Shown here piece by piece: positions 39,541 through 44,164 of a DNA stretch of 64,000 nt. The stretch comes from Leptothrix discophora. Lineage in GTDB: Bacteria; Pseudomonadota; Gammaproteobacteria; Burkholderiales; Burkholderiaceae_C. The notes beneath the pieces are model-generated. The model searched no databases, was not told the origin of the DNA, and was given only the letters and a program-made list of their open reading frames with translations. Position 1 is the first letter of the stretch, and each line of letters opens with the position of its first letter. A program made the position numbers and the translations under genes. The stretch covers positions 62,001 through 126,000 of the forward strand of contig NZ_JAUZEE010000004.1 of the NCBI RefSeq assembly GCF_030705305.1, given 5' to 3'.

Positions 39541-40292
39541 GCCCGACGCCCGATGCGCTGCTCAAGCTGATCTGGCTGGCCTCGCCGGTGCTGCCGGTCG
39601 GCGGCTTCAGCTACTCGGAGGGTCTGGAGGCGGCCGTCGACGGCGGCCAGGTGCGTGACGAGGCCGGCGCGCGGCGCTGGCTGGTCGACCAGCTGCGGCT
39701 CGCGCTGGCCCGCTCGGACCTGCCGGTCGTGGCCGAGGCGATCCGGGCCTGGCGCGGTGGCGTCGACGATGTCGAGCCCGGCAACGATCGCCGCGCTGAC
39801 CTCGCCCGCATCGAGGCCCTGAACACCTGGGTGCGGACCACCCGCGAGACCCTGGAACTGCGCCAGCAGACCGAGCAGATGGGCCGCTCGCTGCACGAGT
39901 GGCTGCGCATCCAGCAGGCCGGCAAGGCCGATGAACACGGGGCGGTCGTGGATGCCGACGCGCGCATCGCGCAGCTCGGTGCGCTCAAGCCGGCACCGAC
40001 CTGGCCGGTCGCCCACGCGCTGGCGCTGGCCCGCAGCGGCGCGCCCTTGCAGCAGGCGCTGCTGGCGCACGGCTTCGGCTGGGCCGAGAACATGGTGCAG
40101 GCCGCACTGAAGGCGGTGCCGCTGGGCCAGAGCGCCGGCCAGCGCATCCTGGCCGCGCTGGTCGAGGCCCTGCCCGCCGCCGTCGAACAGGCGATGACGC
40201 TGGACGACACGACCCGCCAGGCGCACACACCGATGCTGGCCATCCTGTCGGCGCGGCACGAGGCACAGTACTCGCGCCTGTTCCGCTCGTGA
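39537..40292 (+). CDS. ureF: Urease accessory protein UreF
   Basis: A 251-residue UreF that, with UreD, docks the GTPase UreG on apo-urease. The N-terminus [30 protein letters not shown] is diagnostic, and [38 protein letters not shown] is the conserved C-terminal helix region. It overlaps ureE by 4 bp (ATGA), and its stop overlaps the GTG of an MFS gene. In most relatives ureG follows ureF directly; here it does not. Confidence 0.95.
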
Positions 40293-41548
40293 ACGACGCG
40301 GCACCTGGCGGCCTCGCCGCGCTGTGGGCGATCCGGCCCTACCGCCGCTTCTGGCTGACGCGCGTCACGACCCAGACCGCCAGCCAGATGGCCATGGTTG
40401 CGCTGGGCTGGCAGATGTACGAGCTGACCGGCAGCGCCTGGGACCTCGGCCTGGTCGGCCTGGCCCAGTTCGCGCCGGCACTGGTCTTCACGCTGCCGGC
40501 CGGCGCCATGGCCGACCGGCACCGGCGCTCGCGCATCCTGCAGGCGACCACGGTGATGCAGGCGCTGATCGCGCTGGCGCTGGTGATGGGCAGCCTGGCC
40601 GGCGGCCAGCTCGGTGCCTTCGGCGGCTGGCTGGGGCGCGATGCGGTGCTGGCCCTGTCGGTGCTGCTGGGCGTCGCCCGCGCCTTCCAGACCCCCGCCA
40701 CGCAGGCGCTGCCGGCCCTGCTGGTGCCAGGCGACATGCTGGCCCGCGCGGTGGCGCTGAGTTCCAGCGGCATGCAGATCGCGGTGATCGGCGGTCCGGC
40801 ACTCGGCGGGCTGCTCTATGCCTTCGGGCCGGCCGTCGTGCACGGCGTCTGCGCGGGCCTGCTGGTGATCGCCTTCGGCTGCGCGCTGGGCGTCGTGCAT
40901 GCCCGGCCACGGCCCGATCCCGACAACAAGGGCTGGTCGGCCGTCTGGGCCGGTGTGCACTACCTGCGCGGCCAGCCGGTGCTGCTGGGCGCCATCTCGC
41001 TGGACCTGTTCGCGGTGCTGCTGGGCGGCGCGACCGCGCTGCTGCCGATCTACGCCAAGGACATCCTGCACGTCGGCCCCTGGGGCCTGGGCCTGCTGCG
41101 CGCCGCCCCGGCGGTCGGCGCGCTGTCGATGTCGATCTGGCTGGCCCGCCGCCCCAGCCTGCAGCATGCCGGCCCGGTGCTGTTCGGCGCGGTGGCCTTC
41201 TATGGCCTGTGCATGGTCGGCTTCGCGCTGTCGACGGTGTTCTGGCTGTCGCTGGCGGTGCTGGCCTTGTCCGGCGCGGCCGACATGATCAGCGTCGTGG
41301 TGCGCCAGACGCTGGTGCAGCTGGAGACCCCCGACGCGATGCGCGGCCGGGTCAGCGCGGTCAACTCGGTCTTCATCGGCGCAAGCAACCAGCTCGGCGA
41401 GTTCGAGTCCGGCGCCACCGCCGCCGCCCTCGGCCCGGTCGGCTCGGTGCTGCTGGGCGGCTTCGGCGTGCTGGCGGTGGCGGGGCTGTGGACGCGGCTG
41501 TTCCCGGAACTGTGGCGGCGCGGGGCGCTGGAGCGGCGGGGCGGGTAG
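40289..41548 (+). CDS. MFS transporter (EntS/MFS_3-like)
   Basis: A 419-residue major-facilitator protein with about 12 hydrophobic helices. The A-motif region [15 protein letters not shown] after helix 2 and the extended second-half motif [30 protein letters not shown] are typical of the EntS-like MFS_3 exporters. GTG start inside the ureF stop (GTGA), so it is translationally coupled to urease maturation genes at the place where ureG is expected. The substrate is not readable; a link to nickel or urea is speculative. Confidence 0.85.
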
Positions 41549-41694
41549 CTCTGGATCGACTTCGGCCCGAGGTTCACCCTTGGCACCCCTGCACGCGCGG
41601 ACAGTCCCGCAGATGCAACGCTTTCAAGTCGAAGTTCTACCTGTATAAGTAATTACCCTATGTTTGATGTTTGACTAAGCTTGAACAACTCTCG

Positions 41695-41708
41695 TGCCTC
41701 ATGAGGCA
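41695..41708. promoter_or_regulatory. 14-bp palindrome TGCCTCATGAGGCA upstream of the oxygenase gene
   Basis: A perfect palindrome 45 bp before the ATG at 41754, within an AT-rich 205-bp gap (41549-41753). A TATAAG hexamer at 41644-41649, 16 bp after TTTCAA (41622-41627), is a possible promoter. The palindrome is a plausible operator. Confidence 0.35.
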
Positions 41709-41753
41709 ATGAGGGAACTATCAATCGAGCGCATTCAAACCAGGGATAAGCAA

Positions 41754-42494
41754 ATGAACACAATCAGCAGCATCGACAATCAAATCAATCATGCCGCCAA
41801 TCAATATAAACCTCCCAGCAATACTGAAAAGCTCAAGTATTCACTCAAGGAGCGTGGATTTGCGCACCTACCCGGATTAATCGAAAAAGAACTGCTGCAG
41901 GCCCTACGCGAAGAATGCCACAGGCTTTTGGGATCACATGGGATTGAACGAGACTTCCTGATGAAGCAAACGGCAAACACGCCGAGACGCATGGTGAATG
42001 TCAGACAACAAGACATCTCAACCAATGGCAAGATTATTCCCGCACTCTACAAGTCAGAAGCAATGAAGCACTTGTTCGAGGAGATCGCGGGATGCCAATT
42101 CATGCCATGCCCCTACAAACCTGAAGAATTCATCATCAACGCCCTGTTCAAATCCGGGAACACCCATGGCTGGCACTGGGATGACTACAAGTACGGAATC
42201 GTTTTCGCAGTCGAAGTCCCGGAAAAGGAAAACGGCGGCTACGTGCAAGTCGTCCCCAATTCCCGCTGGAACCGCCAACGTCCAAGCGTCGAAGACGTGC
42301 TTTTCGATTCGGTCATACATTCGTTCCGGCTTGAGCCCGGCGACGCATACATCATCAGGACAGATACAAGCATGCATCGCGTCAGCGAAATCAACGACGG
42401 TGCGAAGCGAGTCGTCGTCAACATGGTTTGGGCCGCAGCAGATGAAGTCGATCGTGTGGTCGATCACTCGACGATGGAGGAACTGTTCTCATGA
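41754..42494 (+). CDS. BesD/HalD-like Fe(II)/2-oxoglutarate-dependent enzyme
   Basis: A 246-residue cupin-fold oxygenase. The metal triad reads H141-x-D143 (HGWHWDDYKYG) and H208 (RTDTSMHRV), with R219 (KRVVVN) as the likely 2-oxoglutarate anchor. The 67-residue spacing of the two His equals that of H137/H204 as I recall them for the lysine halogenase BesD. In BesD the carboxylate ligand is replaced by Gly to admit chloride; here it is Asp, which favours hydroxylation. Start MNTISSIDN chosen over an upstream ATG at 41694 because AGGGATAAG precedes it. Much lower GC than neighbours, suggesting transfer. Overlaps the LysE gene. A free amino acid is a likely substrate. Confidence 0.75.
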   Translation: MNTISSIDNQINHAANQYKPPSNTEKLKYSLKERGFAHLPGLIEKELLQALREECHRLLGSHGIERDFLMKQTANTPRRMVNVRQQDISTNGKIIPALYKSEAMKHLFEEIAGCQFMPCPYKPEEFIINALFKSGNTHGWHWDDYKYGIVFAVEVPEKENGGYVQVVPNSRWNRQRPSVEDVLFDSVIHSFRLEPGDAYIIRTDTSMHRVSEINDGAKRVVVNMVWAAADEVDRVVDHSTMEELFS

Positions 42495-43111
42495 TGACCT
42501 TGTTCATCTCTGCCTTCCTTCTTGGCTTGATCTTCAATGCGTCGCCGGGTGCCGTGTTTGCCGAGTCCCTCAAGCGCGGCCTTTCGGGCGGTTACGACGC
42601 GGCCCTGAAGGTCCAATTCGGATCGCTGGTGGGTGACGCAACCTGGGCGGTACTCGGGTTGGCGGGTGCAGGCGTACTGTTTCAGTGGCCAACCATACGG
42701 ATGCCGCTCACGATCTGCGGTGCAGCCTATCTGGCGTGGCTGGGTGCAACCACACTGATGAGCACCCCGAACCGCACTGAGACGATGGACGGCACGGGCG
42801 AGCCTGCAGGAAACCAAGGCGCCCTCTTTGCCGGCGCCAGTCTCTCGCTGACGAATCCCGCAAACGTCTTCTATTGGGCTGCCCTTGGTGGTGTACTCGG
42901 CACACTGGGTGTCAATCAACCGACCACAGCGCACTACAGCGTATTCTTTGCAGGTTTCATGACGTCGTCGCTGCTGTGGTGTTTCGTTTGTGCGGGATTG
43001 ATCCATGCGATGCACAGGACTTTGCCGACCGCCGTGGCCCACTGGCTCAACCTTTTGTGTGGATGGACACTGATCGGGTTGGCCGTCAGTACCGTTTACG
43101 AACAGTTCTAG
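42491..43111 (+). CDS. LysE family amino-acid exporter
   Basis: A 206-residue membrane protein with about six helices and the LysE/RhtB signature at the N-terminus (LGLIFNASPGAVFAESLKRGLSGGYDAALKVQFGSLVGD) plus LSLTNPANVFYWAALGGVLG. Members export lysine, homoserine, threonine or other amino acids. It overlaps the 2-oxoglutarate enzyme by four bases (ATGA), so the two probably make and export one modified amino acid. GC is intermediate. The following 285 bp (43112-43396) hold nothing I can identify. Confidence 0.88.
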   Translation: MMTLFISAFLLGLIFNASPGAVFAESLKRGLSGGYDAALKVQFGSLVGDATWAVLGLAGAGVLFQWPTIRMPLTICGAAYLAWLGATTLMSTPNRTETMDGTGEPAGNQGALFAGASLSLTNPANVFYWAALGGVLGTLGVNQPTTAHYSVFFAGFMTSSLLWCFVCAGLIHAMHRTLPTAVAHWLNLLCGWTLIGLAVSTVYEQF

Positions 43112-43396
43112 CCTGATTCAGCATCATCGGGATCACGCTGACGCGTGAGGCGCTCAATCCTTCACCTGCGGAGGTTGGGCGCGTCGGCGACACGGCGGTC
43201 ACGCTCGAGGTTCACGTCGACCCGCATCGTCCACAGGGAACACGGGAAAGCGGTTCCTGCCGAAACGTCGGCACGGCGAAGCCAGTGTTGATGTTGCAGC
43301 GCAGCAGACACGGCACAATCCCAGCCGGCCCCGCCGGTTCGTGAGCTGTCGCGAGCGGAGGGCCCTCCCGATCTCCTCCCGACCGAAAGACCTCCG

Positions 43397-44164
43397 ATGC
43401 GCCGTGTCGTGTTCAACCAGAAGGGTGGCGTGGGCAAGTCCACGATCACCAGCAACCTGGCCGCCATCAGCGCCAGCCAGGGCCTGCGCACCCTCGTGCT
43501 CGATCTCGATGCGCAGGGCAACACCACGCGCTATCTGCTGGGCGACGGGGCGGATGCGCTGGAGACCTCGGTGGCCGAGTTCTTCACCCAGACGCTGAGC
43601 TTCGCCTTCGACCCGAAGAAGTCGGCCGAGTACATCTACGAGACGCCCTTCGAGCACCTGCACCTGATGCCGTCCAGCCCGGCGCTGGAGGAACTGCACG
43701 GCAAGCTGGAGTCGCGCTACAAGATCTACAAGCTGCGCGATGCACTCGATGCGCTGGCGGCCGACTACGACCGCATCTACATCGACACGCCGCCGGCGCT
43801 GAACTTCTACACGCGCAGTGCGCTGATCGCCGCGCAGCGCTGCCTGATCCCGTTCGACTGCGACGACTTCTCGCGCCGCGCGCTCTATGCGCTGCTGGAC
43901 AACGTCAAGGAGATCCAGGCCGACCACAACCCCGGCCTGCAGGTCGAGGGCATCGTGGTCAACCAGTTCCAGCCGCGCGCCAGCCTGCCGCAGAAGGTCG
44001 TGCAGGAGCTGATCGACGAGGGCCTGCCGGTCCTGCAGCCCTACCTGTCGGCCTCCGTCAAGATCAAGGAATCGCACGAGCTGTCGCGGCCCATGATCCA
44101 CCTCGACGCGCGCCACAAGCTCACGCAGGAATACGTCGCGCTGCACGACGGCCTGAAGGGCTGA
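43397..44164 (+). CDS. ParA/Soj family ATPase, orphan
   Basis: A 255-residue deviant-Walker-A ATPase. KGGVGKST is at residues 9-16, DLDAQGN (Walker A') near 36, and IYIDTPPALNFYTRSAL (Walker B/switch) near 128. Close to chromosomal and plasmid ParA/Soj and to orphan ParAs that position cellular cargo. No parB or parS-like repeats adjoin; the neighbours are metabolic. Function is therefore open: cargo positioning is as likely as DNA segregation. ATG 43397 has no strong ribosome site. Confidence 0.88.
   Translation: MRRVVFNQKGGVGKSTITSNLAAISASQGLRTLVLDLDAQGNTTRYLLGDGADALETSVAEFFTQTLSFAFDPKKSAEYIYETPFEHLHLMPSSPALEELHGKLESRYKIYKLRDALDALAADYDRIYIDTPPALNFYTRSALIAAQRCLIPFDCDDFSRRALYALLDNVKEIQADHNPGLQVEGIVVNQFQPRASLPQKVVQELIDEGLPVLQPYLSASVKIKESHELSRPMIHLDARHKLTQEYVALHDGLKG

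Follow-up and report, generated by a model that had tools for sequence, protein, structure and literature searches.

A two-gene cassette of low GC content, probably foreign DNA, lies in the 64,000-nucleotide stretch of Leptothrix discophora DNA analysed here (hereafter the window) and joins a HalD/BesD-family Fe(II)/2-oxoglutarate enzyme, predicted to be an amino-acid hydroxylase, to a LysE-type protein of a cassette-specific subfamily. The reading that we favour, with some reservation, is that of a horizontally moved module whose enzyme would hydroxylate a free cationic amino acid and whose LysE protein would secrete the product. What appears to be new is the HalD-LysE pairing; the operon logic of a hydroxylase with an exporter and a hydroxylase of the BesD family are already in print.

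Coordinates and composition of the locus

The hydroxylase gene (41754..42494, plus strand) encodes 246 amino acids and is followed by the gene for the predicted LysE-type exporter of 206 amino acids (42491..43111, plus strand), the stop of the former and the start of the latter sharing the four bases ATGA (42491..42494, plus strand). This overlap with a LysE gene, which the initial annotation had pointed out and which we find to be 4 bp long with an exporter that matches PF01810 at 118.6 bits (E 3.1e-34), suggests translational coupling of the two genes. The hydroxylase reading frame could also begin farther upstream, at a GTG at 41694; the ATG at 41754 is the likelier start, because AGGGA, the likely ribosome-binding site of the gene (41742..41746, plus strand), sits 8-12 bases 5' of it. 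A GC content well under that of the surroundings had also been remarked upon, and it is indeed 50.7% in the hydroxylase gene and 59.3% in the LysE gene as compared with 70.3% in the window, while GC3 is 61.5% and 70%, respectively, as against 95.5% and 94.1% in the flanking MFS and ParA-like genes. A promoter and terminator scan returned one minus-strand promoter-like site and four terminator-like sites, all inside the two genes and none usable.

Family assignment of the enzyme

The enzyme had been described as a BesD-like Fe/2OG protein, and both profile and PDB searches agree with this. It matches the Pfam HalD family (PF23169) at 284.4 bits (E 7.3e-85, profile positions 4-227 of 228, cut-off 26 bits), and its best PDB match is HalB (E 2.6e-52, 181 bits). 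Eight distinct PDB sequences were retrieved at E 7.3e-36 or better, namely HalB, HalD, three of HalA (9oer, 9oev and 9oew, the last two being mutants by title), BesD and two of Hydrox; the ligands or names given for these eight are lysine or ornithine, HalB being listed with glycine as well. The remaining four PDB matches were LexA, at E 0.33 or worse. Against NCBIfam NF042920 (L-lysine 4-chlorinase BesD, an equivalog model) the protein scored 170.6 bits, far below the 450-bit cut-off, and it is therefore not BesD itself. Membership in an unrelated family, for example a PhyH-type one, had been named as the outcome that would overturn the assignment; it did not occur, PhyH (PF05721) being out at 15.1 bits with a cut-off of 22, next to 284 bits for HalD and the PDB matches. 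The 2OG-FeII_Oxy_3 profile (PF13640) also gave 15.1 bits, under its cut-off of 27, and PF10014 was not among the Pfam matches at E up to 1, which places the window enzyme outside the IDO/Hil-type hydroxylases, recognised by either of these two profiles at cut-off. Structural modelling adds little beyond sequence: AlphaFold, run on the four cassette proteins (three of them from other genera, see below), gave a mean pLDDT of 53 and a pTM of 0.59, with the iron-site region mostly under 50, and the 40 chains that Foldseek returned for this low-pLDDT model at E up to 0.001 were all of the BesD family, at TM 0.39-0.47 and an rmsd of about 15 A.

Iron ligands and substrate pocket

By alignment, the iron triad of the window enzyme is H141, D143 and H208, the HxD...H arrangement of a Hydrox-like hydroxylase. 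The codons of H141-W142-D143, which hold the first two predicted ligands, occupy 42174..42182 and that of H208, the third, 42375..42377 (both plus strand); the 67-residue spacing first reported for the His pair is thus present in the ORF, which reads H141-W-D143-D144 ... H208. The initial annotation had further seen Asp in place of the halogenase-defining Gly and had predicted a hydroxylase, and the alignment upholds this, D143 standing where the BesD reference (L100) has the Gly of HWG. The halogenase signature, that is Gly instead of the carboxylate ligand, is absent from the window enzyme, and a halogenase reading is ruled out by D143. In Fe/2OG aliphatic halogenases, Ala is another replacement of the carboxylate iron ligand.

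The Asp ligand is not in itself a novelty. In an alignment of the window enzyme and 25 family rows, which were picked from strong to weak matches and include two near-copies, 24 of the 26 rows show HxD as the first pair of ligands, and by this sample Asp is the usual state of the family at the halogenase Gly position. Moreover, Hydrox, a lysine hydroxylase of the BesD family, has already been crystallised (7jsd/9oet; PMC13244439). The two rows without HxD are the BesD reference from Streptantibioticus cattleyicolor, which has a BesC gene adjoining (552.9 bits, cut-off 500), and a HalD-family protein of genome G864 (L109, 5925-6767, minus strand) that has seemingly lost both ligand His, with Arg and Pro at the iron-His columns and the Asp kept, in an alignment-dependent reading; the latter is possibly a relative that lacks catalytic activity. 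A tree of 25 rows, midpoint-rooted for drawing only and with Hydrox not among the rows, unites the Gly enzymes BesD, HalA, HalB and HalD in one group (support 99/96) and the four cassette enzymes, that of the window included, in a separate one (100/100).

According to a BesD simulation in PMC13244439, whose numbering we keep (iron His 140 and 207), E123, D143 and D239 pair with the amino group of lysine, R77, H137 and W241 pair with the lysine carboxylate, and R218 and N222 hold succinate. The matching alignment columns of the window enzyme carry E124, D144, R78, H138, R219 and N223, and the lid contacts D239 and W241 have no clear counterpart in its alignment, the C-terminal lid of the window enzyme being HalB-like (HxTM) and not BesD-like. 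These pocket residues would fit a cationic amino acid; lysine, ornithine and arginine cannot be separated by them, because the same contacts are kept in most strong family rows. The Hydrox-3R substitutions D142G, N149I and V223N, which turn Hydrox towards halogenation (PMC13244439), fall on D143, V150 and N223 of the window enzyme if the positions are mapped via the BesD alignment, and N223 would then be a halogenase-type residue beside an Asp ligand.

The LysE partner

The exporter ORF covers positions 2-192 of 193 of the PF01810 profile and passes its cut-off of 25.6 bits. Among the NCBIfam models, no specific exporter model was reached at cut-off, with 37.5 bits for the L-lysine exporter equivalog TIGR00948 (cut-off 213.65) and 57.6 bits for the RhtB-type homoserine/threonine efflux model TIGR00949 (cut-off 183.95). 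The window LysE shares 64, 53 and 62% identity (210-267 bits) with the LysE proteins of the three further cassettes described below (L002, L003 and L004, respectively). When it was used as a query at E up to 0.001, the other LysE proteins detected in the four genomes amounted to seven matches of at most 32% identity and 36.6 bits; Pfam LysE matches in the three other holders number 9, 12 and 13 per genome, the cassette copy included. Because this LysE is cassette-specific and keeps the same place in unrelated flanks, it is seemingly a dedicated partner that moves together with the enzyme. LysE is the next gene at 5 of the 21 HalD loci examined (20 genomes or records and the window), these being the four cassettes and a Phyllobacterium plasmid (L040); elsewhere it lies 1.9 kb away in genome G1033 and is at least 9 kb away, on another contig or absent in 15.

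Recurrence of the cassette in other genera

A contig scan with the window enzyme, which relied on short peptide patterns that diverged copies may escape, found three loci, in Azohydromonas caseinilytica (L002), Allorhizobium sonneratiae (L003) and Noviherbaspirillum malthae (L004). All three have an HWDD enzyme, 58, 56 and 53% identical to that of the window, respectively, and a LysE gene that overlaps it by 4 bp, so that this overlap is present in four of four cassettes, as ATGA in the window, L003 and L004 and as GTGA in L002. Since the enzyme matches PF23169 at E 7.3e-85 and the pair recurs in three genera that were found via the enzyme alone, the pairing is more than chance.

The neighbourhoods were compared using 180 ORFs of at least 120 amino acids that flank the four cassettes and the L040 locus of Phyllobacterium, within up to 6 kb on either side (about 4 kb in the case of the window). 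No homologous pair of flank ORFs was detected among the four cassettes at E 1e-6, and the only two cross-locus pairs at this threshold were one ORF pair between L004 and L040 and the AraC gene preceding the Allorhizobium cassette with the AraC of L040 (45% identical over the full length). At the Azohydromonas cassette, LysE faces a convergent ArgP/LysG regulator gene (378.5 bits, cut-off 297), and upstream lies a gene of the desaturase fold that matches the arginine hydroxylase GntB below cut-off (118.5 bits, cut-off 380); these neighbours, at one locus, are consistent with basic amino acids. An ArgP gene stands beside only one of the four cassettes, and that of the window has no regulator of its own. 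Adjoining the Noviherbaspirillum cassette is a gene (L004, 11504-14749, minus strand) with leucine-rich repeats and a NEL E3-ligase domain (144 bits), the product of which we take to resemble an injected effector.

A fifth cassette was not seen in the genome sets searched, which comprised 399 genomes of the order, 398 of the phylum, 385 of alphaproteobacteria and 369 of the class (overlapping sets), together with 145, 131 and 125 genomes from the families to which the other three holders belong. Apart from the genome of the window, the test for an adjacent LysE covered all 12 genomes of the order, phylum, alphaproteobacterial and class sets in which a match exceeded 130 bits; it did not extend to those weaker than about 75 bits. 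Genome G1793 has a 178.8-bit match with HWDD and no LysE match within the 11.5 kb examined; a very long ORF resembling an NRPS precedes the gene (L152, 5276-6010, minus strand).

The insertion site

The cassette is flanked by an MFS gene (40289-41548) and a ParA-like gene (43397-44164). The probable extent of the foreign insert, 41541..43285 (no strand assigned), is the part without a listed match in 12 sister genomes, its outer limits being set by the flank matches in sister G1465, and among 13 genomes of the genus PF23169 was detected only in the one from which the window comes. The slot was assessed over nine of the 12 sister genomes, with G1469, G1470 and G1471 left out. Three of the nine (G1462, G1463 and G1464) have an empty slot, with 126-133 bp between the ends of the MFS and ParA-like genes in the alignment, as compared with about 1.87 kb in the window; five have 0.8-2.0 kb of other DNA in it, and in G1465 the flanks lie about 23 kb apart and inverted. 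The low GC content had been read as a sign of foreign DNA, and this gains support from the absence of the cassette from the 12 sister genomes, three of which have the empty slot. On this comparison the cassette is probably a horizontally moved two-gene module of foreign origin, with a route of transfer that we infer.

No mobility gene is found among the ORFs of the insert, and three further ORFs in it (two antisense, one in another frame) have no Pfam match at E up to 1. A 13-bp direct repeat with one mismatch (41565 and 43203) flanks the two genes; it may be due to chance, because at least one such match between the flanks also appeared in 3 of 40 first-order resamplings. A clear boundary repeat was not found, and each of four inverted-repeat pairs has an arm inside a cassette gene. 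A phage or virus origin was rejected, as there was no match in a phage collection of 50,697 records and none in IMG/VR using peptide patterns. The occupation of the MFS-ParA interval (41522-43397 in the window) by other DNA in five sister species (L129-L133) raises the possibility that the interval may be an insertion hotspot.

The wider HalD family

Matches to PF23169 occur in 9 of 399 order, 29 of 398 phylum, 52 of 385 alphaproteobacterial and 22 of 369 class genomes, in overlapping sets and mostly under about 75 bits, and 36 plasmid records, 27 of them from Burkholderia, match the window enzyme. HalD-family genes are found by an NRPS (L038), near ATP-grasp genes (L039, L096 and L107), near an amino acid permease (L041) and near MFS genes (L101 and L103). 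The last two loci, on plasmids of Robbsia andropogonis and Burkholderia glumae, belong to a distant HalD group with THGWHLDD and share a row with DUF3050, SDR, CoF-synthetase-like and MFS genes. In genome G1093 (L107, 3709-9213), the HalD-family gene adjoins an EctB-type diaminobutyrate aminotransferase, with the ATP-grasp gene, GARS-like, and an EamA transporter nearby, possibly for the hydroxylation of diaminobutyrate and its export. The gene in G1033 (L106, 5286-9168) adjoins a phosphopantetheinyl transferase, with a class-III aminotransferase and with LysE on the opposite strand. On the Yersinia frederiksenii plasmid NZ_MT039225.1 (L039, 6007-11726), an HWDD HalD-family gene stands in a row with methyltransferase, ATP-grasp and diaminopimelate decarboxylase genes, which may form an amino-acid or dipeptide pathway. 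An unexpected neighbour was seen in genome G1135 (L111, 4404-6735, plus strand), where the HalD-family gene is directly 3' of an aromatic amino acid lyase gene (588 bits).

Comparison with known systems

Among the characterised proteins, HalB, HalD, HalA and BesD (7u6i, 7u6h, 9oer and 6nie) have the same iron-His spacing as the window enzyme, and HalB shares its HxTM C-terminal end, but they carry the HxG halogenase signature and fall into the separate group of the tree. Hydrox (7jsd, 9oet; E 7.3e-36), which was crystallised with lysine, has the Asp ligand in common with the window enzyme (D142 and D143, respectively), whereas it has V223 where the window enzyme, by the putative mapping, has N223; it is also more distant than HalB (127 as against 181 bits), and a LysE partner is not mentioned in the accessible text of PMC13244439. 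A similar arrangement of genes is on the Phyllobacterium sp. T1293 plasmid (L040), where AraC, HalD and LysE follow each other with an HxD enzyme as in the window; however, this enzyme is only 29% identical and belongs to another group (99/99), its LysE gives only 19 bits to that of the window by BLASTP, and its two genes show no overlap. LysE would have been recruited on two occasions, or else an old link between the two loci has decayed.

As to the claim that a make-and-export cassette for a modified amino acid had not been described, it holds for the HalD/BesD-LysE pair, which was not found in the literature as judged by titles and the beginnings of abstracts, most subscription journals being outside the search. 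It does not hold for hydroxylase-exporter operons in general: PMC3684760 describes the Bacillus thuringiensis IDO operon, in which a hydroxylase acting on isoleucine is combined with a reductase and RhtA. This operon and the Hil operons of Pantoea and others resemble the window locus in having a free-amino-acid Fe/2OG hydroxylase in an operon, and the former has an exporter, of the RhtA family where the window has LysE, and an antimicrobial product, AMKP. They differ in that their enzymes are of the PF10014/PF13640 type, act on isoleucine and come with an extra reductase, while the window has HalD and LysE only (PMC3684760).

Discussion

In the mechanism that we propose for the window cassette, 2OG and O2 would give rise to a ferryl species at H141, D143 and H208, the amino acid being held by R78 and H138 at its carboxylate and by E124 and D144 at its amino group, and the enzyme would then hydroxylate a C-H bond. 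Hydroxylation is expected rather than halogenation, because Asp fills the site where halogenases bind chloride. The substrate would most likely be L-lysine or a close analogue (ornithine, arginine), and LysE, started on the overlapping ATGA, would export the hydroxylated amino acid. What the sequences show is the family, the ligand residues, the joint inheritance of the two genes, a LysE peculiar to the cassette and its absence from the sister genomes; the reaction, the class of substrate and the export are inferred from these.

The two genes might instead serve detoxification, the hydroxylase and LysE together disarming and expelling a toxic amino acid from plants or neighbours, or an excess of a basic amino acid. 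We regard this as unlikely, yet it has facts on its side: LysE under ArgP/LysG regulation classically relieves lysine or arginine excess and such a gene lies by the Azohydromonas cassette, and what is conserved is two genes only, with no shared tailoring enzyme or ligase. Several relatives of the enzyme, however, are in biosynthetic settings, with BesC by BesD, an NRPS in L038 and ATP-grasp in L039, L096 and L107. It is less plausible still that the linkage is regulatory only, with the hydroxylase product used in the cell or by another pathway and LysE exporting the unmodified amino acid. The cargo of LysE cannot be read from its sequence, and no characterised exporter model is reached at cut-off, which leaves room for such a division; against it, the partner is cassette-specific in four genomes that have other LysE genes and stays beside the enzyme in unrelated neighbourhoods.

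We consider quite improbable another Fe/2OG outcome despite the Asp (desaturation, cyclisation or cleavage), or a basic amino acid within a dipeptide as the substrate. V150 and the halogenase-type N223, at the positions of N149I and V223N in Hydrox, would speak for it, but a carboxylate iron ligand is present, the halogenase engineering of Hydrox included D142G (PMC13244439), and the characterised relatives act on free amino acids.

Enzymes of the BesD family are investigated as tools with which C-H bonds of free amino acids can be functionalised. Hydrox is the only family hydroxylase with a stated activity in the literature consulted, where an exporter partner goes unmentioned. The window enzyme is a useful case for the hydroxylase-to-halogenase question because it has the halogenase-type N223 beside the Asp ligand, and the self-contained pair makes the question of make-and-export testable in a single strain. 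A product-specific LysE, if true, would also be of use in the production of hydroxylated basic amino acids. An ecological role as antimetabolite or signal is our guess. In its boldest form, which we put forward only tentatively, the cassette would be a minimal mobile antimetabolite island, two translationally coupled genes common to alpha- and betaproteobacteria, by which a free basic amino acid would be converted to a hydroxylated antimetabolite or signal and secreted by a dedicated exporter, export being self-protection; if this is true, the island would represent a stripped-down form of the larger HalD-family clusters with ligases or NRPS.
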